Shown piece by piece: positions 5,449 through 61,621 of a stretch of DNA of 64,000 bases. Position 1 is the stretch's first letter. Each line of letters begins with the position of its first letter. The DNA comes from Methylocapsa acidiphila B2 (lineage in GTDB: Bacteria > Pseudomonadota > Alphaproteobacteria > Rhizobiales > Beijerinckiaceae). A model generated the notes under the pieces. The model was not told the origin of the DNA. It did not search any database and saw only the letters and a program-made list of their open reading frames with translations. Location: contig NZ_ATYA01000001.1 in NCBI RefSeq assembly GCF_000427445.1, positions 1 through 64,000 on the forward strand, given 5' to 3'. The translations under genes and the position numbers were made by a program.

Positions 5449-5919
5449 CTACTCGGCGTTGCCCGTGTTGAGTGCCGTAAAACCAGCGTCCGTCAGCCGG
5501 TAGAAACCGGGCATTGAGGCGTTTTCCAGCCAGCGGTTCGTCAAGATTTTTTCCAAAGCTGGTTTGAGGTCGCCGTCGCGAAAGCGTTTGAGGACCAGGC
5601 TCTCTTGCACGGGCGCCCAAATGAACGATTTTCCGATTTTTATGCCGCGCGTACCGATTTCGGTCATGATCGCTTGGATCGTATCGTCTTCCGACGGCGG
5701 CGCGCCAAAGAATTTGACATATCCAGCCATCGTCATTTTGTAAGAGCCTTCAGAGGTGTTTACGATCACACCCTCTTCGCCCATCTGCTTCAAAACGGCG
5801 CGCAACTCGTCTGGGTGAGGATAGCGGATTTGCAGAGACGCGAATAAAAAGGTTTCCCCTTCTCGAAAGCCTCTGGCTTTGATGAAATGATTGATTGCCT
5901 CTACTGCCGTCGCCGCCAT
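5449..5919 (-). CDS. Hypothetical protein, 156 residues
   Basis: I do not recognise the family. The frame is clean with balanced codons, a plausible ATG start (MAATAVEAINHFIKARGF) and a middle rich in alternating charged and hydrophobic residues. Residues 30-75 (RYPHPDELRAVLKQMGEEGV ... SYKMTMAGYVKF) and the C-terminal tail (FYRLTDAGFTAL) read like winged-helix segments, so a DNA-binding or adaptor role is possible but unproven. It is flanked by IS debris on both sides. Confidence 0.65.
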   Translation of the reverse strand: MAATAVEAINHFIKARGFREGETFLFASLQIRYPHPDELRAVLKQMGEEGVIVNTSEGSYKMTMAGYVKFFGAPPSEDDTIQAIMTEIGTRGIKIGKSFIWAPVQESLVLKRFRDGDLKPALEKILTNRWLENASMPGFYRLTDAGFTALNTGNAE

Positions 5920-5980
5920 TTCGATACTCGCAAATCAAGGCTTCATGGATTGCCTGCAATGGAATGGACGCTAGCAAAAA

Positions 5981-6388
5981 TCAAGCTGACTGCTTCTTTC
6001 TCGGCGTCTCGATCTTTTCCCCCAGATTCTTGCCCCGCGAACCGCCAGTCGCGCGCTCCCGGGCGTCGTCCGCGTCGAGCCGTTTCAGATAGTCCGCTAG
6101 CTTCTTATCGGCGGTCTCAATGAATTTTTGCAGCGATTTCGTCGGGAAGCTCCGGTCTATATTGTTGACCTCCTTGATGCGCGTGCCGTCAACCGCCCGC
6201 AACTCACGTCGGAACAGATCGAGCCGTCCGCACAGGATCACGAACTGCCGGAAAATCTTCTTGAATGCGGCGCGATTGTTGTTCCTGAAATCGGCGATGG
6301 TCGTGAAATTCGGCTTAAAGCTCCGCAACAGCCAGATGACCTCAACGTTGCGATGCCATTCGTCTTCGAGACAGCCGCTCGACCGCAC
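5981..6388 (-). pseudogene. IS1182 family transposase N-terminal fragment
   Basis: The minus-strand frame reads EDEWHRNVEVIWLLRSFKPN ... TIADFRNNNRAAFKKIFRQF ... LRAVDGTRIKEVNNIDRSF, the conserved N-terminal region of IS1182 transposases including the first catalytic Asp in AVDGTRIK. It is truncated on both sides: no natural start, and the frame ends soon after a coiled segment. Confidence 0.78.
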
Positions 6389-6532: not shown

Positions 6533-7177
6533 ATGAAGCAAACGCCTCAAGACCTGGAAAAGATTGCCGCCTTCACGCTGGAGGATTACGACCGACGCGC
6601 CGAAGATTTCTGGGAAGGCACGCGCGGTCACGACGTCAGCCAGAACGTCGCGACAATGTTGCAATATATCGAGGGCGAACGGCCCTTCAGGCTCCTCGAT
6701 TTTGGCTGCGGGCCCGGGCGCGACCTGATGGTCTTCGCCAAACTCGGCCATATCGCGATAGGTTTGGAAGGCGCCCCACGCTTCGCCGCCATGGCGCGCG
6801 CCCACAGCGGCTGCGAAGTTTGGCGGCAAGATTTTCTCAAGCTCGATTTGCCAGAGAACCATTTCGATGGCGTATTCGCCAACGCGACGCTTTTTCACGT
6901 CCCCAGCCAGGAGTTGCCGCGCGTCTTGCTGGAGCTGCATGCCTGTCTGAAACCCGGCGGCGTGCTGTTTAGCTCGAATCCGCACGGACGAAATGAAGAA
7001 GGCTGGAGCCGTGGGAGCTATGGCGCATATCATGACCTGGAGGCTTGGCGCCGGTACCTGTCGGCGGCCGGCTTCGCTGAACTGACCCATTATTACCGCC
7101 CGACCGGCCAGCCGCGGGAAAGACAACCCTGGCTTGCGAGCGTCTGGCGGCGGGAAGCCCGCGGGCCGCGTCCATGA
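6533..7177 (+). CDS. Class I SAM-dependent methyltransferase
   Basis: A 214-residue enzyme expected to transfer a methyl group from S-adenosylmethionine to an unknown acceptor. Motif I, LLDFGCGPGRDL, lies at residues 54-65, the acidic end of motif II follows (IGLEGAP), and motif IV-like FDGVFANATLFHV comes at about 115-127. The frame is open far upstream, but that part is IS1182 sequence; the ATG at 6533 gives the normal length for the family. There is no signal peptide and the neighbours do not reveal a substrate. It appears intact among IS fragments. Confidence 0.88.
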   Translation: MKQTPQDLEKIAAFTLEDYDRRAEDFWEGTRGHDVSQNVATMLQYIEGERPFRLLDFGCGPGRDLMVFAKLGHIAIGLEGAPRFAAMARAHSGCEVWRQDFLKLDLPENHFDGVFANATLFHVPSQELPRVLLELHACLKPGGVLFSSNPHGRNEEGWSRGSYGAYHDLEAWRRYLSAAGFAELTHYYRPTGQPRERQPWLASVWRREARGPRP

Positions 7178-7297
7178 GTTCCACATTGAAACTCAAGTCG
7201 CGAATCCGAACGCCCGCAACGGCGAGGTCGATGGCAACCGCAATCGCTTTACCAGAGGCGGCCGCCGAACTGGGCAATCCTCCTCTCGTCGAGGACC

Positions 7298-7744
7298 TTG
7301 ATCGATAAAACGGCGGCTGCCGCGAGATCGCAATCATATCCCGGCCGCGACTTGACGTCCCTGATTCCTCCCCGTCTCTTCGCAAAGGCGATCGTTTCGG
7401 CGGTCGACCCCGCCCCGTCGATCATCGGGGGACGGTTTGGACGACATTGCGCCGGATCTACATTATTGCTCGGATACGACGTGTCTTTCATTCCGCATAG
7501 CGGGCACGGCGTGTTGGAAACGGGCTTCGGGCATTGGTTTGATTTCCAATTGTGGCCATATGAACCTCGCCGGCAGATTTACGTTAAGGCTTCCTATTGG
7601 CCGGAACCTTCGCGCCAACCGCGATGCGCCAGCCCCAATTATTTGACACGATCCATGTTCGCCGAATGGCTTCAGGCTTGCTACGGTAATATGTTGCTGA
7701 AGGTCGACGATCGCGCCAAATTTAACGGCGATAGCAAAGAATGA
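7298..7744 (+). CDS. Possible hypothetical protein, doubtful
   Basis: An open frame of 148 codons with a TTG start and no clear ribosome binding site. The C-terminal half (residues 70-148, with GHWFDFQLWPYEPRRQIYVK) looks more protein-like than the N-terminal half, which is Ser/Arg/Pro-rich and may be an antisense shadow. No family is recognised, so it could be spurious. Confidence 0.25.
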   Translation: MIDKTAAAARSQSYPGRDLTSLIPPRLFAKAIVSAVDPAPSIIGGRFGRHCAGSTLLLGYDVSFIPHSGHGVLETGFGHWFDFQLWPYEPRRQIYVKASYWPEPSRQPRCASPNYLTRSMFAEWLQACYGNMLLKVDDRAKFNGDSKE

Positions 7745-50364: not shown

Positions 50365-51480
50365 ATGCCTCCGCGCCGCCGGACCCTTCCGCCAAACCCG
50401 CCCGCCTTCCCGCCCTTTCCGAGCTGGGCGAGAGTCGGCGCCCCGCCGGAATCGCCCGGGGAGGCCGCATTCCTCGCCGGCGCGGCGCTCGCCGCCCTCC
50501 ATCCGATCGCCCGCGCCGAGCATCCCCTCGCTTCGCTCTGGCGCCAACGCCTGGCGCTCGCCTGCGCCGCGGCCGTCGCAAGGCGGGGCGGCCGCACGGA
50601 AGACGAGGCGGCGCTGCGCGACGCCTGGTATCTCCGCCGCGCCGGCGACGATCCCGGCCCCGCCGGGCGGATCCTCGAAGCCTGGCGCGCCTTAAGCCAG
50701 CGCGCCGCCTTGCGATCGGAGGACTGGACGCTCCATCTCGCCGCCATGCTGGAGTTGCGGCTCGATGACGGTCTGCAAGACGTCCTCTCCGTCGCGGCCA
50801 AGCTCGCAAAAGGGCAGGGGAGCGCCGTCGCGGCGGCGGCCGAGATCGCCGCGGTCAGCCTGCGCTTCCGGCCGGATTCGGACGCCCTCGCGCTCTGGCT
50901 CGCCGACGCCGTGCTCGCCCATCGCCTGAATTGGCCGGCGCCCGTTCCGCTCCTTGCGGGCCAAGTCCTGGCGGGCCAAGTCCTGGCGGGCCAAGTCCTG
51001 GCGGGCCAAGTCCTGGCGGGCCAAGTCCTGGCGGGCCAAGTCCTGGCGGGCCAAGTCCTGGCGGGCCAAGTTCTGGCGGGCCAAGTTCTGGCGGGCCAAG
51101 TTCTGGCGGGCCAAGTTCTGGCCGGCCAGCGCCGCCGCGGCGATTTTTTCCGCGCGGCGAAGCGGCAGGGCGACGACGACGCCCGGCTGACCGCCTGCTG
51201 CGTCGGCTACGCCCGGGCGGCGGCCGCCGCGGCGGATCTTTACGCCGATCTCGCCCGCCGCGCCGAGCGGCTTTTGGCGGTCGCGCCCAAGCTGCGCGGC
51301 AAGGACGCCGACATCATGGCGGCCATCCTGATCGGCGAAGACGCGCAAGCCGCCAATTGCGGCGGACCGGGGAAGACGACGAGCGACCGCTCGAGCCGGC
51401 GGCTGTTCGAGCGGCTCGTCGCCCTTGGCGCCGTGCGCGAGCTCACCGGCCGGGCGACGTTCCGGCTCTACGGGTTGTGA
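50365..51480 (+). CDS. DUF1403 family protein with tandem LAGQV insert
   Basis: 371 residues. The flanking parts match the DUF1403 family found on alphaproteobacterial plasmids beside ScpB-like genes (AAFLAGAALAALHPIARAEH; AALRDAWYLRRAGDDPGPAG; GGPGKTTSDRSSRRLFERLV; ALGAVRELTGRATFRLYGL). Around residues 197-255 eleven copies of LAGQV and a twelfth LAGQ, encoded by a 15-bp minisatellite, replace ordinary sequence, yet the frame stays open. The function is unknown; the neighbours suggest a part in plasmid or chromosome maintenance. The stop is four bases before the scpB-like start. Confidence 0.85.
   Translation: MPPRRRTLPPNPPAFPPFPSWARVGAPPESPGEAAFLAGAALAALHPIARAEHPLASLWRQRLALACAAAVARRGGRTEDEAALRDAWYLRRAGDDPGPAGRILEAWRALSQRAALRSEDWTLHLAAMLELRLDDGLQDVLSVAAKLAKGQGSAVAAAAEIAAVSLRFRPDSDALALWLADAVLAHRLNWPAPVPLLAGQVLAGQVLAGQVLAGQVLAGQVLAGQVLAGQVLAGQVLAGQVLAGQVLAGQVLAGQRRRGDFFRAAKRQGDDDARLTACCVGYARAAAAAADLYADLARRAERLLAVAPKLRGKDADIMAAILIGEDAQAANCGGPGKTTSDRSSRRLFERLVALGAVRELTGRATFRLYGL
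50953..51129. repeat. 15-bp tandem repeat, about 12 copies, within DUF1403
   Basis: The unit CTGGCGGGCCAAGTC repeats without a break. Units 1-7 end in GTC, units 8-11 in GTT, and the last unit has GCCGGCCAG, so it grew in at least two amplification steps. Because 15 is a multiple of three, length changes keep the frame. Confidence 0.97.
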
Positions 51481-55169: not shown

Positions 55170-55400
55170 ATGGCGTCCCAGGCCCGCGAGAAATTCGCAA
55201 CCCAGGTGAATTCGGAGATTCTGGCCACTGTCCGCAATCTTGCGCAGAGCGAGGGTCGGCAGCTTCAGGCGCTTGTCGATGAAGCCTTGGCTGATCTGAT
55301 TGAAAAGCGGAAGCAGGGTAAGCCTCGCGCCAATGTCATGGCCGCCTATCAGGCGAGCCATAAGAAGTTCGGGTCACTTTACAAGAAGCTGGCTGAATGA
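55170..55400 (+). CDS. Antitoxin of the Doc module
   Basis: 76 residues from the ATG at 55170. The N-terminal FATQVNSEILATVRNLAQSE with GRQLQALVDEALADLIEKR is a ribbon-helix-helix-like DNA-binding domain; the C-terminal tail (NVMAAYQASHKKFGSLYKKL) probably neutralises the toxin. It overlaps the toxin start by ATGA and lies behind a perfect palindromic operator, so autoregulation is likely. Confidence 0.85.
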   Translation: MASQAREKFATQVNSEILATVRNLAQSEGRQLQALVDEALADLIEKRKQGKPRANVMAAYQASHKKFGSLYKKLAE

Positions 55401-55783
55401 CGGACTATCTGACCGTTGTTGAAGTCCTTGCCATTCATGACGACCAAATTGACCGTTACGGCGGCTCTGCCGGCATGCGCGATCGCGGCCTGCTGGAAGC
55501 GGCCCTATACCGCCCCCAGACAGGTTATTACGCCGATCTGATCGAGGAAGCCGCCGCGCTTTGGGAAAGCCTGGCGCAGAACCATCCTTTCATCGACGGC
55601 AACAAGCGCACGGCCTTTGCCGTCACCTATACCTTTCTCGCCATCAATGGCGCGCGCATCACGGCGGACGCCGACGCGATCTATGATTTCATCAACGGCC
55701 TTTATGAGACCGGCACATTCGAGTTTGGCCGATTAGTAGACGACTGGCTCCGCGCCAACGTGACGCCGGCGCCTCCGGCCTAG
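55397..55783 (+). CDS. doc: Doc-type (Fic superfamily) toxin
   Basis: 128 residues. The Fic/Doc signature is at His63-Arg71 (NHPFIDGNKRTA), matching H-x-F-x-D-x-N-K-R; known Doc phosphorylates elongation factor Tu and stops translation. The length and the N-terminal VVEVLAIHDDQIDRYGGSAG are typical of death-on-curing proteins. With the upstream antitoxin it should act as a plasmid addiction or phage-response module. Intact. Confidence 0.92.
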   Translation: MTDYLTVVEVLAIHDDQIDRYGGSAGMRDRGLLEAALYRPQTGYYADLIEEAAALWESLAQNHPFIDGNKRTAFAVTYTFLAINGARITADADAIYDFINGLYETGTFEFGRLVDDWLRANVTPAPPA

Positions 55784-56007: not shown

Positions 56008-56283
56008 ATGATCGAATTATCAAGACATGCAGAGTTGCGATGCCAACAGCGGAGCATCACTCCAACGCGGTGGAAGCGGCTTCTTGAATACGCGGACGTC
56101 GAGAAACAGATCGGCGACAATTGCACGGTATTGCGGGTCAGCCGAAGGACCGCAAAACATCTCGATGAAGCGCGCGGACTTGAACGCGTCGCCGTCATAT
56201 GGAGCGATGGCAACGCCAGAATTGTGTCTGTGATGCACCTTCATAAGGCCAAATCTGGCCGCCGTTATCGCGCTCGCCGCTGA
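56008..56283 (+). CDS. Small DUF4258-like basic protein
   Basis: 91 residues from the ATG at 56008 with GGAG 12 bases upstream. The start IELSRHAELRCQQRSITPTR resembles the 'H...R..QR.I' opening of DUF4258/BECR-like proteins, some of which are toxins; the end (VSVMHLHKAKSGRRYRARR) is strongly basic. It precedes the 514-residue gene by 8 bp on the same strand, so the two are probably co-transcribed. Function unproven. Confidence 0.7.
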   Translation: MIELSRHAELRCQQRSITPTRWKRLLEYADVEKQIGDNCTVLRVSRRTAKHLDEARGLERVAVIWSDGNARIVSVMHLHKAKSGRRYRARR

Positions 56284-56291
56284 GGCTTACT

Positions 56292-57836
56292 ATGAACGAC
56301 AATATTATTCCTTTTCGTCCTCAGTCCAAACGCCCCGACGCTCTTGCCGCCGAGCGCATGCACCAAAATCGCGATCGGCTTCGTTTGAAGCAGATTGTAG
56401 AGGCGTGCAAAAAGGAAAAGGCACAACTTCGCTTCGCGGGTGATGACGCCGCGCGAGCAGGAAAGGCTCTCTACGAACTCAAAGAAGAGTTCCTGACCCG
56501 GCGGGGGCAGGTGGCGGAGGCGAAAAAACACTTCGAGAAACTCCATCGGTTTATTGTTTCCGATGATTTCCCAACTGCCGAGGAGATGGCCGCGAAGGCC
56601 AAGACGATGACCCAGAAAGTCGGCGGATATCTTGATGCCGCAAAAGCCATCGCCAAAGCTGGCAATGCAGCTCCAGACGAATGTCAAATGCGCTGCTTAC
56701 GCGGAACTGCCCTTTGGCAACATTGGAACTCCTCCACAGCCAAGCGAGAAAAGGCGTCTCCTGCAAGTTACGGATCGGACCATGTTGCTTGGCTGCTTGA
56801 GGCGATGGCAAAGCGCGTTGTCAGAGATACAAGGCTCGACGAACTCCTCGCGCGCATGCGCCGCGTACCAGCACAATACAATATCTCCACCCGAGAGTTC
56901 GAGAACAGCAGTATGGCCGCATTGTTCCAAACCGCATACCAAGCGTGGTTTGCGTTCTACGGGGAAGCGCCGCCACTGCCATCTGTTCCGCTTGTAAGGA
57001 TTCCACATAGGACCTGGCTCTGGCCTGTGCGGCTGACGCGCGAGGGTAGCGGCCATCCTTATGACGATGACGTTTTAGACAATCCCGTGAGCGAAACTGA
57101 GGGCGTCGAATGTCGTGCCGAGGTCATTCTTTTTCGTGAAATCAGGCTTGCGCTCGGACCTACCGTTAACGCAACGACCATCGCCCCGATGTTCGAAAGC
57201 CGGCCATGCCTCGAAATCACAACTCTGAACAGCGAGGGCGAACCGGTTAGGTCAAGCGTTGTCAGGAATGTTTATGATGCAGGTCAACTTACGGAGACAA
57301 AGTCATTCGCTGTATCCTTTGATAATAATTGGCACCGCTTCACGCCTCTCCCGACGATCGAAAAAGGCGATGTCATAAAAAGCGTGACTTCGGTAATTGT
57401 GGGCGAAGACGTTGCTGATTGGGAGTATTGGTCAACTCAGCCTTTGTCCGATGATAAAAATTGCGTTGAGCATTACTATATTTCATGGACGGCAGTTGAT
57501 GGATCGTATGTCCAACACTGGCTGGAGCGGATTAGCGGAGATGCACAACCAATTGAACCCATGCCAGACGTTGCTCCTCTAAAGAACCCGAAATACGGAA
57601 CTTGGTTTCCCAGACCATATATTGGAAATCACGTAGAGGTTGCGGTCAACGACGGGCGGTTGGAGTCAGCTCTCCGCGACGCAATCGAACATATCCGCTC
57701 ATCCTTCGATAAATACGAAGCAAATTGGAGGTCTTCTATGCAAGCGCAAACGGCTGATCAAATTTCGGAATTTGAATCCGATCTCCGGGCCGCCGAAGCA
57801 CTCCTCCGCGATGAACAGGACATCAGCGATGAATGA
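56292..57836 (+). CDS. Unknown 514-residue protein in a GIY-YIG gene cluster
   Basis: I do not recognise this protein. Residues 15-125 are charged and helical, probably coiled coil (RLRLKQIVEACKKEKAQLRF; EEFLTRRGQVAEAKKHFEKL). The middle (residues 130-260) has scattered Trp and Arg, and residues 265-460 look beta-rich (VSETEGVECRAEVILFREIR; SFAVSFDNNWHRFTPLPTIE; DWEYWSTQPLSDDKNCVEHY). The end is again helical (DQISEFESDLRAAEALLRDE). It lies 8 bp after the DUF4258-like gene and overlaps the start of the GIY-YIG gene by eight bases, so the three are probably one operon. Normal codon use and no signs of decay. Confidence 0.8.
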   Translation: MNDNIIPFRPQSKRPDALAAERMHQNRDRLRLKQIVEACKKEKAQLRFAGDDAARAGKALYELKEEFLTRRGQVAEAKKHFEKLHRFIVSDDFPTAEEMAAKAKTMTQKVGGYLDAAKAIAKAGNAAPDECQMRCLRGTALWQHWNSSTAKREKASPASYGSDHVAWLLEAMAKRVVRDTRLDELLARMRRVPAQYNISTREFENSSMAALFQTAYQAWFAFYGEAPPLPSVPLVRIPHRTWLWPVRLTREGSGHPYDDDVLDNPVSETEGVECRAEVILFREIRLALGPTVNATTIAPMFESRPCLEITTLNSEGEPVRSSVVRNVYDAGQLTETKSFAVSFDNNWHRFTPLPTIEKGDVIKSVTSVIVGEDVADWEYWSTQPLSDDKNCVEHYYISWTAVDGSYVQHWLERISGDAQPIEPMPDVAPLKNPKYGTWFPRPYIGNHVEVAVNDGRLESALRDAIEHIRSSFDKYEANWRSSMQAQTADQISEFESDLRAAEALLRDEQDISDE

Positions 57837-58749
57837 ACAACTTCAAGACCTACGGCCAACGCTTGTTGAAGAACTCGACTTCACGACATTGCAGATGCTC
57901 GATGCCGCAGGTGTCAGACGTGCGCTCGGAAACGGCAAACCATTTTACGTCTATATCCTCATTCGGCCAGATGGGACGCCATTCTACGTCGGCAAGGGCG
58001 TGAGGCTACGCGTATTCGATCATGAGGCCGAGGCACGCAATACCAAGCTACTTACGCACAAATTGAATCTCATCCGCAGTCTGCATTCACGCGGCCATTC
58101 CATTGGATATCGCATCGACAGCTTTTTCGATGATGAGACAGACGCTTTGGCCAGAGAACGGCATCTCATCGCGAGCATCGGTCGGCATGACCTAAAAGCG
58201 GGCCCCCTCACAAATCAAACCGATGGAGGCGAAGGCACGTCGAATCCATCGGAGGAGAGCAGGCAGCGCAGACGGGATTCGCTCTGGGGTAACGACGCCG
58301 CCGATCCAGAGCGTCAGATTGCCAACCGCTACTTTCAGCAGCTGACGCCTGTCCGTTCCGTCCCTATTAAGCCGGTCAACACATTCAAGAGAGCCGCCGG
58401 TCTTTGGAAGAACGATGACACTATCGGGATGAAACCGCGGCAGGCCGGAGCTCTGCTTGCCAGTGCGATCGCGAACCGCGTGCTGCTTGAACCAGGCGCG
58501 TTGCTTCCCCGGCGCCTTCACATCGATAATGTTGAGTATATTATTGAGAATGGGGCAGGAAGGGATATGATCTCAAACGGGATGATAACACTCGCCGACA
58601 ACACTACTACACGCGAAGTTCTTCGACTGACAGATCTTGGCTTTCGTTATGTCATAGCTAAGTTCAAGGTAGAAATATTGATTGACGCCGGCATTCTATT
58701 GCCGAATTCCAGCTCATATAGCGATCACCCTCAAACCAAGCTCGGCTGA
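57829..58749 (+). CDS. GIY-YIG nuclease (LEM-3-like)
   Basis: 306 residues from the ATG at 57829 (57811 is an alternative). The N-terminal GIY-YIG domain shows Tyr42 and Tyr53-Gly55 (FYVYILIRPDGTPFYVGKG), Arg61, Glu110 (ALARERHLIASIG) and the NQTDGGEG element (129-136) typical of the LEM-3-like subgroup. The C-terminal domain (residues 200-300, GMKPRQAGALLASAIANRVL; VEYIIENGAGRDMISNGMIT) is unfamiliar. Expected to cut DNA; it may act with the 514-residue protein whose gene it overlaps. Intact. Confidence 0.85.
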   Translation: MNEQLQDLRPTLVEELDFTTLQMLDAAGVRRALGNGKPFYVYILIRPDGTPFYVGKGVRLRVFDHEAEARNTKLLTHKLNLIRSLHSRGHSIGYRIDSFFDDETDALARERHLIASIGRHDLKAGPLTNQTDGGEGTSNPSEESRQRRRDSLWGNDAADPERQIANRYFQQLTPVRSVPIKPVNTFKRAAGLWKNDDTIGMKPRQAGALLASAIANRVLLEPGALLPRRLHIDNVEYIIENGAGRDMISNGMITLADNTTTREVLRLTDLGFRYVIAKFKVEILIDAGILLPNSSSYSDHPQTKLG

Positions 58750-58779: not shown

Positions 58780-59736
58780 TCAGACAAGAATCCGCTCGAC
58801 CTCGTCGAGCGTGACTTCCTCAGCGCGCCGGTCATAGAGCTGCGTCGTGCGCGTCGAGGCGTGGTTCGCCATCAGCGCGGCGCGTTCGAGCGTGCCGCCG
58901 TTCTTCAGGTAAGCGGAGACGCCCGTCGCCCGAAGGGTGTGGTTGCCGACATGCGTGGTGATGCCTGCGGCCTTGGCCCGCCTCTGGATCATCGCATAGG
59001 CGTTCGCTTGGGGCAGGGGCGCGCCGCTGAGCTGGCGACTTGCGCGGTTATAGGTCTGGAACAAGAGCGCCTTGAGATCGGCCGCGAGGCCCGCGCCCTC
59101 GATATACGCGTGCAGATAAGCCTCTAAATTGTGATGGCACGGCATGGCGTGCTCCTTGCCGCCCTTCTCGTGAAGCCGCACCCAAAGCCGCCGGTTCTGC
59201 GGATAAGCGTCCTCGACGCGCATGGCGATGGCCGCGCCGATGCGGGCGAAGGAATAGACCATAAGCCCGATGAGGGCGCGGTCGCGGAGGCCGATGACGG
59301 TCGCGACATTAATCGCGTCGATGAGCTGGCGCGCCTCCTGCGGATCGAGCACTGGCGTCTTGCCGCGCCGGACGATGTGGCGCGGCCCGCGCACGGCGGC
59401 GGCGGGATTGACCGGCATGATCTGGCCGATCACCATCCAGTCGAACAAATGCCGCAAGGCGGCGAGGCGCAGCTTCGCGGTCGGCGCGGAGCGGGCCTTC
59501 TGAAGCTCTTCGACATAGGCGGCGACATGCACGCTCTCGATGGCCGCAATCCGCGTCACGCCCTTGGCCGCCAGCCAGTCAAAGAATTCATGCGCCGCAC
59601 GCGCATAGGCGCGGCGCGTGTTCTGGTTGCGGATGTTGGCGGTGAAGAATTCAAGGAAGCGATAGGCGGCGCGTTCGCCGGAGGCGGCAACGAGAGTGGG
59701 GGCATGCGAGGCAGCAAGAGTTGGAAGTGGTGTCAT
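58780..59736 (-). CDS. Tyrosine recombinase (integrase)
   Basis: 318 residues from the ATG at 59736. Core-binding domain: NQNTRRAYARAAHEFFDWLA. Catalytic residues: Arg in FARIGAAIAMRVEDA, Lys in EKGGKEHAMP, VGNHTLRATGVSAYL (H-x-x-R) and NHASTRTTQLYDRR with His and Tyr. Its start overlaps the stop of the upstream membrane protein (ATGA), so the pair is translationally coupled. A dif-like inverted repeat is just upstream of that pair. It probably mobilises or maintains the neighbouring cargo. Confidence 0.92.
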   Translation of the reverse strand: MTPLPTLAASHAPTLVAASGERAAYRFLEFFTANIRNQNTRRAYARAAHEFFDWLAAKGVTRIAAIESVHVAAYVEELQKARSAPTAKLRLAALRHLFDWMVIGQIMPVNPAAAVRGPRHIVRRGKTPVLDPQEARQLIDAINVATVIGLRDRALIGLMVYSFARIGAAIAMRVEDAYPQNRRLWVRLHEKGGKEHAMPCHHNLEAYLHAYIEGAGLAADLKALLFQTYNRASRQLSGAPLPQANAYAMIQRRAKAAGITTHVGNHTLRATGVSAYLKNGGTLERAALMANHASTRTTQLYDRRAEEVTLDEVERILV

Positions 59737-60092
59737 CGAGTTGAACACCTCACGGATGCAGCCTTTCCGGCGATAGTCAGAGCACCGCCAATGGCGAACA
59801 AGGCGAAAAGCCAAGGCCGCCAGCGCCGCTTGCGTTCGTCTGCAATCACGACCGGCAGCTCTTCCAATTGCTCGCGCACGGGCCTGAGGAGAGTTTCAGT
59901 CAACGTCTTTTTTTGCGGGCCTGACACGAGCCCTTCAATCCGGCTCAGGCTGTCATGCTCCCAATTGAAATAAGCGCGCATGAGATCGGCTGAGGCAGGG
60001 TCGACGACGAAGAACTGCACGCTGAAAGCCAGGACGGCGAATGTTTGACCAACGGGCTCAAGCCATCTTGCTTTGCTGATAAGCGAGCCCAT
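59733..60092 (-). CDS. Small membrane protein coupled to the recombinase
   Basis: 119 residues with an excellent AAGGAGGGG before the ATG at 60092. Hydrophobic helices at about 14-32 (VGQTFAVLAFSVQFFVVDPA) and 92-110 (WLFALFAIGGALTIAGKAA) flank a helical loop (TLTETLLRPVREQLEELPVV). No known family. The four-base overlap with the recombinase gene suggests joint expression. Confidence 0.7.
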   Translation of the reverse strand: MGSLISKARWLEPVGQTFAVLAFSVQFFVVDPASADLMRAYFNWEHDSLSRIEGLVSGPQKKTLTETLLRPVREQLEELPVVIADERKRRWRPWLFALFAIGGALTIAGKAASVRCSTR

Positions 60093-60136: not shown

Positions 60137-60361
60137 TGGGGACGGACAACCGCGAAGGTTATGGCTTCCTTACCGGACCGCCTCCGGCGACGTTCCCGGA
60201 TCGGGAACGCGAGCCCAGACAGAGAATGGAAGCGGCACGAATCAGCTTCCACCCTCTCGGCGCGTGTTTGCGTATGTTCTTGGTGTCCAGCAAAGGACGG
60301 GCAAGGTTACGCGCGGCCATCTGTGTTTATATATCCAGCAGGGCGCGACGACGAGGGATAC

Positions 60362-61621
60362 ATGGAGAACGATTGGCAGCGGCGGCTGACGGAGGCAAAC
60401 AGCTTCGTGCGCGAACATGAAGAGCAAATGCGACGCCTAAGGGAATTCGCCGCGTCGACCCGACCATTTGGCCTTGATAGCGAAACGCTGCGCTCAATCG
60501 CCAAAATGCGGGAGCAGGCGAATTTTCTTAAAGTAATGCAGTCAAATCCGGCTATCGCCGATGTGGCGGCAGTGATCAGGGGAGTAACCGGTCCGGGCAG
60601 CGCCCTCATGGCAGCAAAAGCACAAGCAATGGAGTCACATTCGGCTATGGCCCATGCGGCGGCAGCGATCGGGAAGATAACCGGTCCGGGCAGTGCTTAT
60701 GATCTTGCCACGCAATCCCTCAGCGAGTTCGCCAAGCGCTTTCGTGTCCCTGAATTCGATGAAATGTCGAGGTTGTTACCAAAGGTGCAGAATTCTATCT
60801 GGCTGCAATATGGCCTGCCAAAATCGCACTTTGAAACGATTCTCAGCGGGTTTCGTCAGCCATGGCTGGATGTTCGGGATCAGCTAGGCTCACTGACAGG
60901 CGTCGCAAAACTGCAAGGCATCGGGCACCTGATCGCCACGAAGCCCCCCTTCGATCTGGACGCAGTCTCGGCCCTCAGGATCGATCTCGGCGATTGGCGG
61001 GATCGGATCAATTGGCCAATTACCGCAGCAACGGATGTTACCGTCCGCACCGCACTTTACGCCGAACGCGGCTTCAACCCGGCCCTTACCACGTTTCCCT
61101 CCGAAACTTTCGAGGAAGGTATCGCCGGGCTGCGCAGTGGTCTGCCTCCGCTTGTCGCGGCCTATGGCGATCCAGTGCCGCGGTCTGACGATGATGAGGA
61201 AGAAGAGTCATTCTTTCGGAACAACGTCATTCACGATTGGCTTCAGCGGTTTGAGAGTCAAATTCGCCGCTTCATCGATATGCTAATGACGGAGCATTAC
61301 GGAAGCGATTGGCCGCGCCATCAGCTACCGAATGGGCTGTATGACACGTGGGTGGAAAAGCAGGTGAAAGATAAATCAGGGCGCGATTGGCCACTCGTTT
61401 ATTATGCCGATTTCACCGAATATGAGCTTGTTATCTGCAAGAGGGACAACTGGAACAAAATATTCGGGAAGTATTTCAAGCGCCAGGAACATGTTCGGGA
61501 ATCATTACAACGGCTATATCTACCGCGAAATGCCACCATGCACGCGCGTCCGTTGATGCCTGAAGACGAATTGTTTGTGTTCGTGGAAGTCCGACGGCTT
61601 ATCAAGCTGTTCTACCCGTAG
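60362..61621 (+). CDS. Swt1-type HEPN protein, putative ribonuclease
   Basis: 419 residues from the ATG at 60362. The C-terminal 135 residues resemble the Swt1-type HEPN domain (FESQIRRFIDMLMTEHYGSD and W; LVYYADFTEYELVICKRDNW; LYLPRNATMHARPLM) with the HEPN R-x4-H motif at Arg389-His394 (RNATMH), the catalytic signature of many HEPN RNases in toxin and defence systems. The N-terminal part contains a duplicated 20-residue unit ending VTGPGSA/ITGPGSA near residues 60-110. An acidic patch DDDEEEESF precedes the HEPN domain. It has its own promoter region, divergent from the recombinase operon. Confidence 0.7.
   Translation: MENDWQRRLTEANSFVREHEEQMRRLREFAASTRPFGLDSETLRSIAKMREQANFLKVMQSNPAIADVAAVIRGVTGPGSALMAAKAQAMESHSAMAHAAAAIGKITGPGSAYDLATQSLSEFAKRFRVPEFDEMSRLLPKVQNSIWLQYGLPKSHFETILSGFRQPWLDVRDQLGSLTGVAKLQGIGHLIATKPPFDLDAVSALRIDLGDWRDRINWPITAATDVTVRTALYAERGFNPALTTFPSETFEEGIAGLRSGLPPLVAAYGDPVPRSDDDEEEESFFRNNVIHDWLQRFESQIRRFIDMLMTEHYGSDWPRHQLPNGLYDTWVEKQVKDKSGRDWPLVYYADFTEYELVICKRDNWNKIFGKYFKRQEHVRESLQRLYLPRNATMHARPLMPEDELFVFVEVRRLIKLFYP

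Follow-up and report, generated by a model that had tools for sequence, protein, structure and literature searches.

Three adjacent genes of Methylocapsa acidiphila B2 encode a small toxin-like protein, a large protein and a GIY-YIG nuclease, and in this cluster and its relatives the fixed partnership is that of gene 1 with gene 2, not that of gene 2 with the nuclease. Our preferred reading, which we hold tentatively, is that the genes form a mobile, rare and modular cassette, most likely guarding against phages or other mobile DNA. The cluster was found in a stretch of 64,000 nucleotides (contig NZ_ATYA01000001.1, positions 1 to 64,000), and the whole of this stretch is called the window below. 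The features of interest are the following:

Doc toxin gene, 55397-55783, upstream of the cluster: DOC_P1, 73.5 bits (cut-off 38.65)
Gene 1, 56008-56283, + strand: 91 aa, DUF4258-like, predicted BECR-like (RelE/BrnT/colicin E5-like) fold
Gene 2, 56292-57836, + strand: 514 aa, family apparently undescribed, follows gene 1 directly
Gene 3, 57829-58749, + strand: 306 aa from the ATG at 57829, GIY-YIG nuclease
Tyrosine recombinase gene, 58780-59814, downstream of the cluster, on the strand opposite to genes 1-3

As originally predicted, the three frames are intact, free of internal stops and on one strand (91, 514 and 306 codons), with 8 bp between genes 1 and 2 and an 8-nt overlap of genes 2 and 3, and they are flanked by a Doc toxin module, in which a small antitoxin-like gene accompanies the Doc gene, and by the recombinase. 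The G+C content over the cluster is 0.51-0.57 (in 1-kb steps) as compared to 0.62-0.74 at 48-52 kb of the window, and low values are also seen elsewhere nearby, at 60-62.5 kb. Both the low G+C content and the recombinase next door favour the view that genes 1 and 2 serve mobile elements as a stress-response or maintenance toxin module and play no role in defence, and so does a remnant of the same tyrosine recombinase family at 5823-6008 of locus L007 (E 8e-6), on an Azospirillum plasmid, which is located directly behind the syntenic GIY-YIG gene. Such a module would not need the nuclease or nuclease-like gene found in six of the nine loci described below, nor the restriction and Abi genes that neighbour two of them, and we consider this explanation improbable.

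Just past the recombinase the window encodes, at 60161-61621 (+ strand), a protein of 486 aa whose C-terminal domain is HEPN_Swt1 (28.2 bits, cut-off 27.5) and which matches the PADLOC candidate PDC-M34B (E 1.7e-10); it looks like another candidate defence gene. On the other side of the cluster a 15-bp unit is repeated 11.9 times with 98% identity (50951-51128) inside an ORF (50365-51480), where it encodes a repeated VLAGQ stretch.

A scan with a GIY-YIG profile and one peptide pattern, covering one genome per species in 84,980 species, yielded 53 loci. The order gene 1-gene 2-gene 3 with tight spacing recurs in three other alphaproteobacterial genomes, those of Bradyrhizobium pachyrhizi (L039), Siccirubricoccus soli (L012) and a Rhizobiales MAG (L026) whose gene 2 frame is broken. 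These three were found through the GIY-YIG bait, and a further locus, on a Microvirga terrae plasmid (L008), through gene 1; gene 2 is supported in all four by profiles from which the member under test was left out. Because three loci had been found via the nuclease, a search was done with the gene 2 profile only, in 161 genomes of the genus of L039 and 160 of the family of L012. Beyond the two starting genomes gene 2 was detected in 1/160 and 2/159 genomes, respectively (3/319), at four new loci: L181 and L182, which belong to one genome (G970), L183 and L184. Gene 1 was immediately upstream in 4/4 of these loci, as it is in 9/9 profile-verified loci. L008 was found through gene 1 and is therefore not counted as a test of the pairing. 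The existence of full-length gene 2 relatives at 32-35% identity, together with the presence of gene 1 before gene 2 in all four loci found by gene 2 alone, indicates that the cluster is more than a chance arrangement.

The nuclease behaved differently: a GIY-YIG gene was present in 0/4 loci found by the gene 2 profile alone and it was missing also from L008, so that none of the five loci with the pair that were detected by other means than a GIY-YIG bait had it. The suggestion that the nuclease and its partner make up a defence pattern thus stands in part: the gene order recurs in L039, L012 and L026, but the GIY-YIG gene is not a constant member. Similarly, a defence setting is seen at some loci, L039 being surrounded by restriction genes (REase-ARP, AAA_21, C5 methylase) and L008 by reverse transcriptase, TIR and Abi genes, but L012 and L026 are located among ordinary genes. 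In L012 the three genes and one 73-aa ORF lie between phosphatase-like and ABC-transporter genes of the other strand, which suggests that the three genes can be a whole unit. The two larger genes do recur together in L039, L012 and L026 and gene 2 has no housekeeping match, so that neither of the doubts attached to the original prediction, rare co-occurrence of these genes or a housekeeping identity of gene 2, was borne out.

Rare and mobile is the best reading of the cassette's distribution. The tblastn search with gene 2 gave no relative in plasmids, phages, viral contigs or the first genome-contig scan, a single-sequence query found no accepted relative in 198 genomes of the family and 396 of the order, and the gene 2 profile detected none in 384 other genomes of the class. 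Plasmid searches with the gene 2 proteins of L039 and L012 gave no match, and the one with the putative gene 2 of L007 returned only L007 itself. It must be noted that the genome searches, those with the single sequence included, scored a few candidates per genome, the best 3 in the 384-genome search and the best 9 in the genus and family search, and therefore these absences are soft. Genomes with gene-1-like sequences, 13 of the 14 from the class (all except G796) and 2 plasmids, contained gene 2 in 0/15 cases.

Several candidates were rejected. L002, a match of the single-sequence gene 2 query (E 6.9e-5), was judged a chance match, which overlaps another long ORF, presumably homogentisate-dioxygenase-like. 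L007 has the layout of the cluster and a relative of gene 1 (held-out E 3.9e-6). For its gene 2, however, the E values of the held-out profiles were 0.8-8.8, or there was no match, as with the L012+L026 profile, and it is not counted as a verified locus. It was kept in the GIY-YIG trees, the gene 2 tree with the window+L012 rejection, the topology tests and alignments A3 and A4; being included in A3, its own A3 score carries no weight. In L024 a DUF4258 gene is accompanied by a GIY-YIG gene sister to that of L026, but other genes, which we take to be RmuC-like, intervene. L040, also checked, looks like an enzyme gene, presumably of a carboxyl transferase.

The third position is occupied by a nuclease or nuclease-like gene in 6/9 verified loci, by a GIY-YIG gene in four (the window, L039, L012 and L026) and by a PD-(D/E)XK-like gene in two, the latter being 2 of the 5 loci found without GIY-YIG bait. 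Genes 2 and 3 overlap by 4 nt in L026, and also in L012 if the start is the GTG at 5776, and are separated by 12 nt in L039. The two PD-(D/E)XK-like genes have weak matches, with the motifs recognised by eye:

L181 third gene, 2 bp behind gene 2: 333 aa, PDDEXK_4 E 0.028, PDC-S26 E 1.4e-4, D62 / E76-x-K78
L182 third gene, 20 bp behind gene 2: 188 aa, VRR_NUC E 0.025, D81 / E99-x-K101

NCBIfam and the PDB sequence search contributed nothing to these two assignments. Genome G970 has the gene 1-gene 2 pair twice: the copies have diverged, and the PD-(D/E)XK-like gene behind one differs from that behind the other. No recognisable nuclease was seen behind the pair in L008, L184 and L183: there was no third-gene candidate in L008, only a 103-aa ORF without matches in L184, and in L183 a 232-aa ORF (6642-7337) 272 bp from gene 2, which matched no family and is vaguely reminiscent of uracil-DNA-glycosylase-like motifs.

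The latter three loci favour the main rival explanation, according to which the genes are independent neighbours, genes 1 and 2 forming a TA-like addiction pair and gene 3 being a restriction-type nuclease that works on its own and travels behind the pair. The same is suggested by the GIY-YIG tree, in which 30 of the 34 rows do not adjoin a verified gene 2, by the related CMoRE, a single-gene defence in the portion of PMC12923530 available, and by the listing of DUF4258 as a BECR toxin family in the accessible part of PMC11980606. It is harder to reconcile with the position of the nuclease, whose start overlaps or almost touches the gene 2 stop in four loci, with the nuclease-like genes of a second fold in the same slot of L181 and L182, and with the very low probability of finding gene 2 near a GIY-YIG gene by chance in 3/53 loci (P 3e-10 at a gene 2 rate of 0.8% of genomes and 3e-7 at ten times that rate, the rate in the gene-2-only survey being 3/319). 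We think that independence of the pair and the nuclease is somewhat unlikely.

Phylogenetic trees of genes 1 and 2 have groups in common, whereas that of gene 3 disagrees with them. In the nine-row gene 2 tree L181 joins the window and L039 in a clade (100/99) and L012 is paired with L026 (93/94, not starred). In a gene 2 tree that includes L007 the window likewise groups with L039, and the window+L012 grouping is rejected. The trio of the window, L039 and L181 is found again in the gene 1 tree (83/89), where window+L012 is weakly rejected with six rows (p-AU 0.0175), and the distance tables of genes 1 and 2 have a correlation of 0.36, a value reached in 179/5000 shuffles. In the five-row tree of gene 3, L039 pairs with L026 (100/99), and in the 34-row tree the window is in a set of seven that includes L012 (95/92), with L039 apart at an unresolved fork. 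The 34-row tree omits L001 and L009 (copies of the window), L034 and L035 (identical to L033 in length and score) and all matches below 160 bits. For gene 3 both window+L039 (p-AU 5.8e-6 with five rows, 2.1e-5 with 34 rows) and L012+L026 (2.1e-6 and 7.5e-40, respectively) are rejected. The cluster rows, L007 included, are scattered over five positions of the GIY-YIG tree and their union in a single clade is rejected (p-AU 4.4e-5), while the gene 2 clade of the window, L039 and L181 carries two GIY-YIG lineages and one PD-(D/E)XK-like gene. Exchange of the nuclease, with the gene 1-gene 2 pair remaining stable, is the simplest reading, to be taken with caution in view of the long branches and the 16-35% identity of the gene 2 proteins.

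Gene 3 scored 24.2 bits against Pfam LEM-3_GIY-YIG, just under the cut-off of 27, and matched PADLOC PD-T4-3 with E 2.1e-8. The catalytic set of GIY-YIG nucleases consists of Tyr, Tyr, Arg, Glu and Asn. Y40, Y42, Y53, G55, R61, H65, E110 and N129 of gene 3 are identical in 34/34 aligned GIY-YIG rows, which agrees with its earlier assignment to the GIY-YIG nucleases and with the role given there to Glu110, and the active site appears intact; the catalytic Arg and Glu are also described in the part of PMC12923530 available. The A1 profile of gene 3 matched the CMoRE structure 9u75 with E 1e-13, in the nuclease domain only, and also 9u7u; the match to CMoRE stops at residue 122 of the 262-residue chain. 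Judged from these matches gene 3 is kin of the phage-defence nuclease PD-T4-3/CMoRE, in the nuclease domain only. The C-terminal half of gene 3 is common to most of the 34 GIY-YIG rows.

The relatives of gene 3 include phage homing endonucleases (phrog_314, E 9e-4; some other matches are so annotated), and the upstream neighbours of its family are very diverse, metabolic enzymes included: it is found behind an amidohydrolase, an FAA hydrolase and a metallo-beta-lactamase, as well as behind GmrSD (L030), a type I specificity-like gene (L028) and T5orf172 (L032). Taken together with a gene 3 tree that is not parallel to that of gene 2, these observations would fit a selfish GIY-YIG gene of the homing type, able to insert behind many different genes, for which the gene 1-gene 2 pair is only one landing place. 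Homing of one family would not explain the PD-(D/E)XK-like genes in the same slot, and the rare gene 2 is followed by GIY-YIG genes of four lineages. NUMOD3 (PF07460) was not detected in the own genome at E 10, a weak test as the same search gave a result above the cut-off in 0/14 control genomes. We regard homing as quite improbable. Members of the gene 3 family were also seen behind AAA_27/YhaN ATPases in L003, L011, L019 and L031, possibly a second recurrent partnership that occurs in several lineages.

The DUF4258 likeness of gene 1 held as a resemblance for the protein of the window (12.9 bits against PF14076, E 0.14, Pfam cut-off 25 bits), and as a family match for its L039 relative, which is 45% identical to it and scored above the cut-off (25.6 bits). 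The predicted model is similar to RelE/BrnT/colicin-type RNase toxins, thus gene 1 is predicted to be a small protein of BECR-like, RNase-toxin fold, and we infer that it is toxic. DUF4258 genes are found also on plasmids of Aminobacter (L175) and Mesorhizobium (L176), beside a WYL protein and a TM0106 RecB-like nuclease, and in L175 additionally near a PD-(D/E)XK nuclease. Our literature searches found no paper on DUF4258 with GIY-YIG, nor one on the gene 1-gene 2 core pair as a combination.

Gene 2 had been described as impossible to place in any family, and our searches agree. There was no match at E 1 in Pfam, PADLOC or PHROGs, the one match in NCBIfam was far under the cut-off (13.8 bits vs 248), a Pfam scan of nine gene 2 members gave a sub-threshold match for one of them (DUF7078, E 0.057), and nothing credible was found in the PDB with the sequence or the nine-member profile. 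The predicted model has low confidence (mean pLDDT 48), with helices at 16-191 and 442-513 and strands at 231-352, in agreement with the coiled-coil ends and beta-rich centre proposed originally; its best Foldseek match (E 0.024) was not interpretable. By these searches gene 2 appears to be a protein of an undescribed family.

The defence reading of the cassette is based on the pairing of genes 1 and 2, the exchange in the third position, the tight coupling of genes 2 and 3, the setting with restriction, Abi and HEPN_Swt1 genes and the kinship with CMoRE. A defence role is plausible from the neighbours and the kinship of the nuclease. In the mechanism that we propose gene 1 would be an RNase-type toxin held silent by gene 2, and gene 2, the probable partner, would both inhibit gene 1 and sense the intruder. 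As the sensor, gene 2 would license the nuclease, infection would release toxin and nuclease, and the third gene, a nuclease that can be exchanged (GIY-YIG in the window, PD-(D/E)XK-like in other loci), would cut DNA once the sensor fires. We infer the inhibition and sensing by gene 2, the licensing of the nuclease by the pair and phage DNA as the target. In its most specific form, which we put forward as a possibility only, this would be an undescribed anti-phage system in which a BECR-fold toxin and a sensor/inhibitor, fast-diverging and of a new family, make up the core, interchangeable DNA nucleases (GIY-YIG, PD-(D/E)XK) are recruited by it and the cutting of RNA and DNA is co-triggered. 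If true, there would be a defence system whose core is an RNase-fold toxin and a large protein of a new family and whose nuclease is replaceable.

It is instructive to compare the cassette with known systems. The accessible part of PMC11980606 lists DUF4258 among the BECR toxin families, with its target given as unknown, and the table entry gives, with no reference, the antitoxin-first order. Gene 1 is similar to the DUF4258 branch of the RelE/ParE-superfamily TA modules in its DUF4258 resemblance and BECR-like model, but these modules, as described there, have a small antitoxin encoded first, whereas here the partner is a 500-aa protein encoded downstream. If our reading is correct, the cassette offers a concrete setting for testing the function of DUF4258.

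Lamassu (LmuA/LmuB/LmuC) is, according to the portion of PMC10586767 available, an established defence design with a conserved core and varying effectors, PD-(D/E)XK nucleases among them. The likeness is in logic only, a core with an exchangeable effector, and homology by sequence is absent: Lamassu has the SMC-like LmuB, whereas genes 1-3 gave no AAA/SMC match at E 1 and the gene 2 profile found none in the PDB, and in place of the Lamassu components there are a BECR-like model (gene 1) and a protein with no family match (gene 2). SNIPE, a membrane-bound GIY-YIG nuclease active in phage defence, shares the nuclease type with gene 3, but it is, in the part of PMC13190303 available, a single protein that combines DUF4041 with a membrane anchor, and gene 3 has no DUF4041 match.

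The closest likeness is to CMoRE/PD-T4-3, which the accessible text of PMC12923530 describes as type IV restriction by a single GIY-YIG gene. The pattern YxY...YVG, R, H, E, LTN of gene 3 aligns with 9u75, and Y40-x-Y42 with the double tyrosine of the CMoRE GIYxY-YIG motif. CMoRE acts alone, whereas gene 3 is in an operon with two partners. CMoRE has a C-terminal 5hmC-sensing domain; the profile match of gene 3 covers the nuclease domain only. The acidic loop of CMoRE, as described in the same source, is autoinhibitory, restrains the nuclease and is negatively charged in most members. Gene 3 does not have the four consecutive acidic residues of this loop; its segment at that position has a net charge of +2 and no acidic run, and of the 34 GIY-YIG rows 27 have a net positive segment, 2 a neutral and 5 a negative one. 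If our reading of the cassette is right, GIY-YIG nucleases that lack the autoinhibitory loop of CMoRE might be held in check by their partners.
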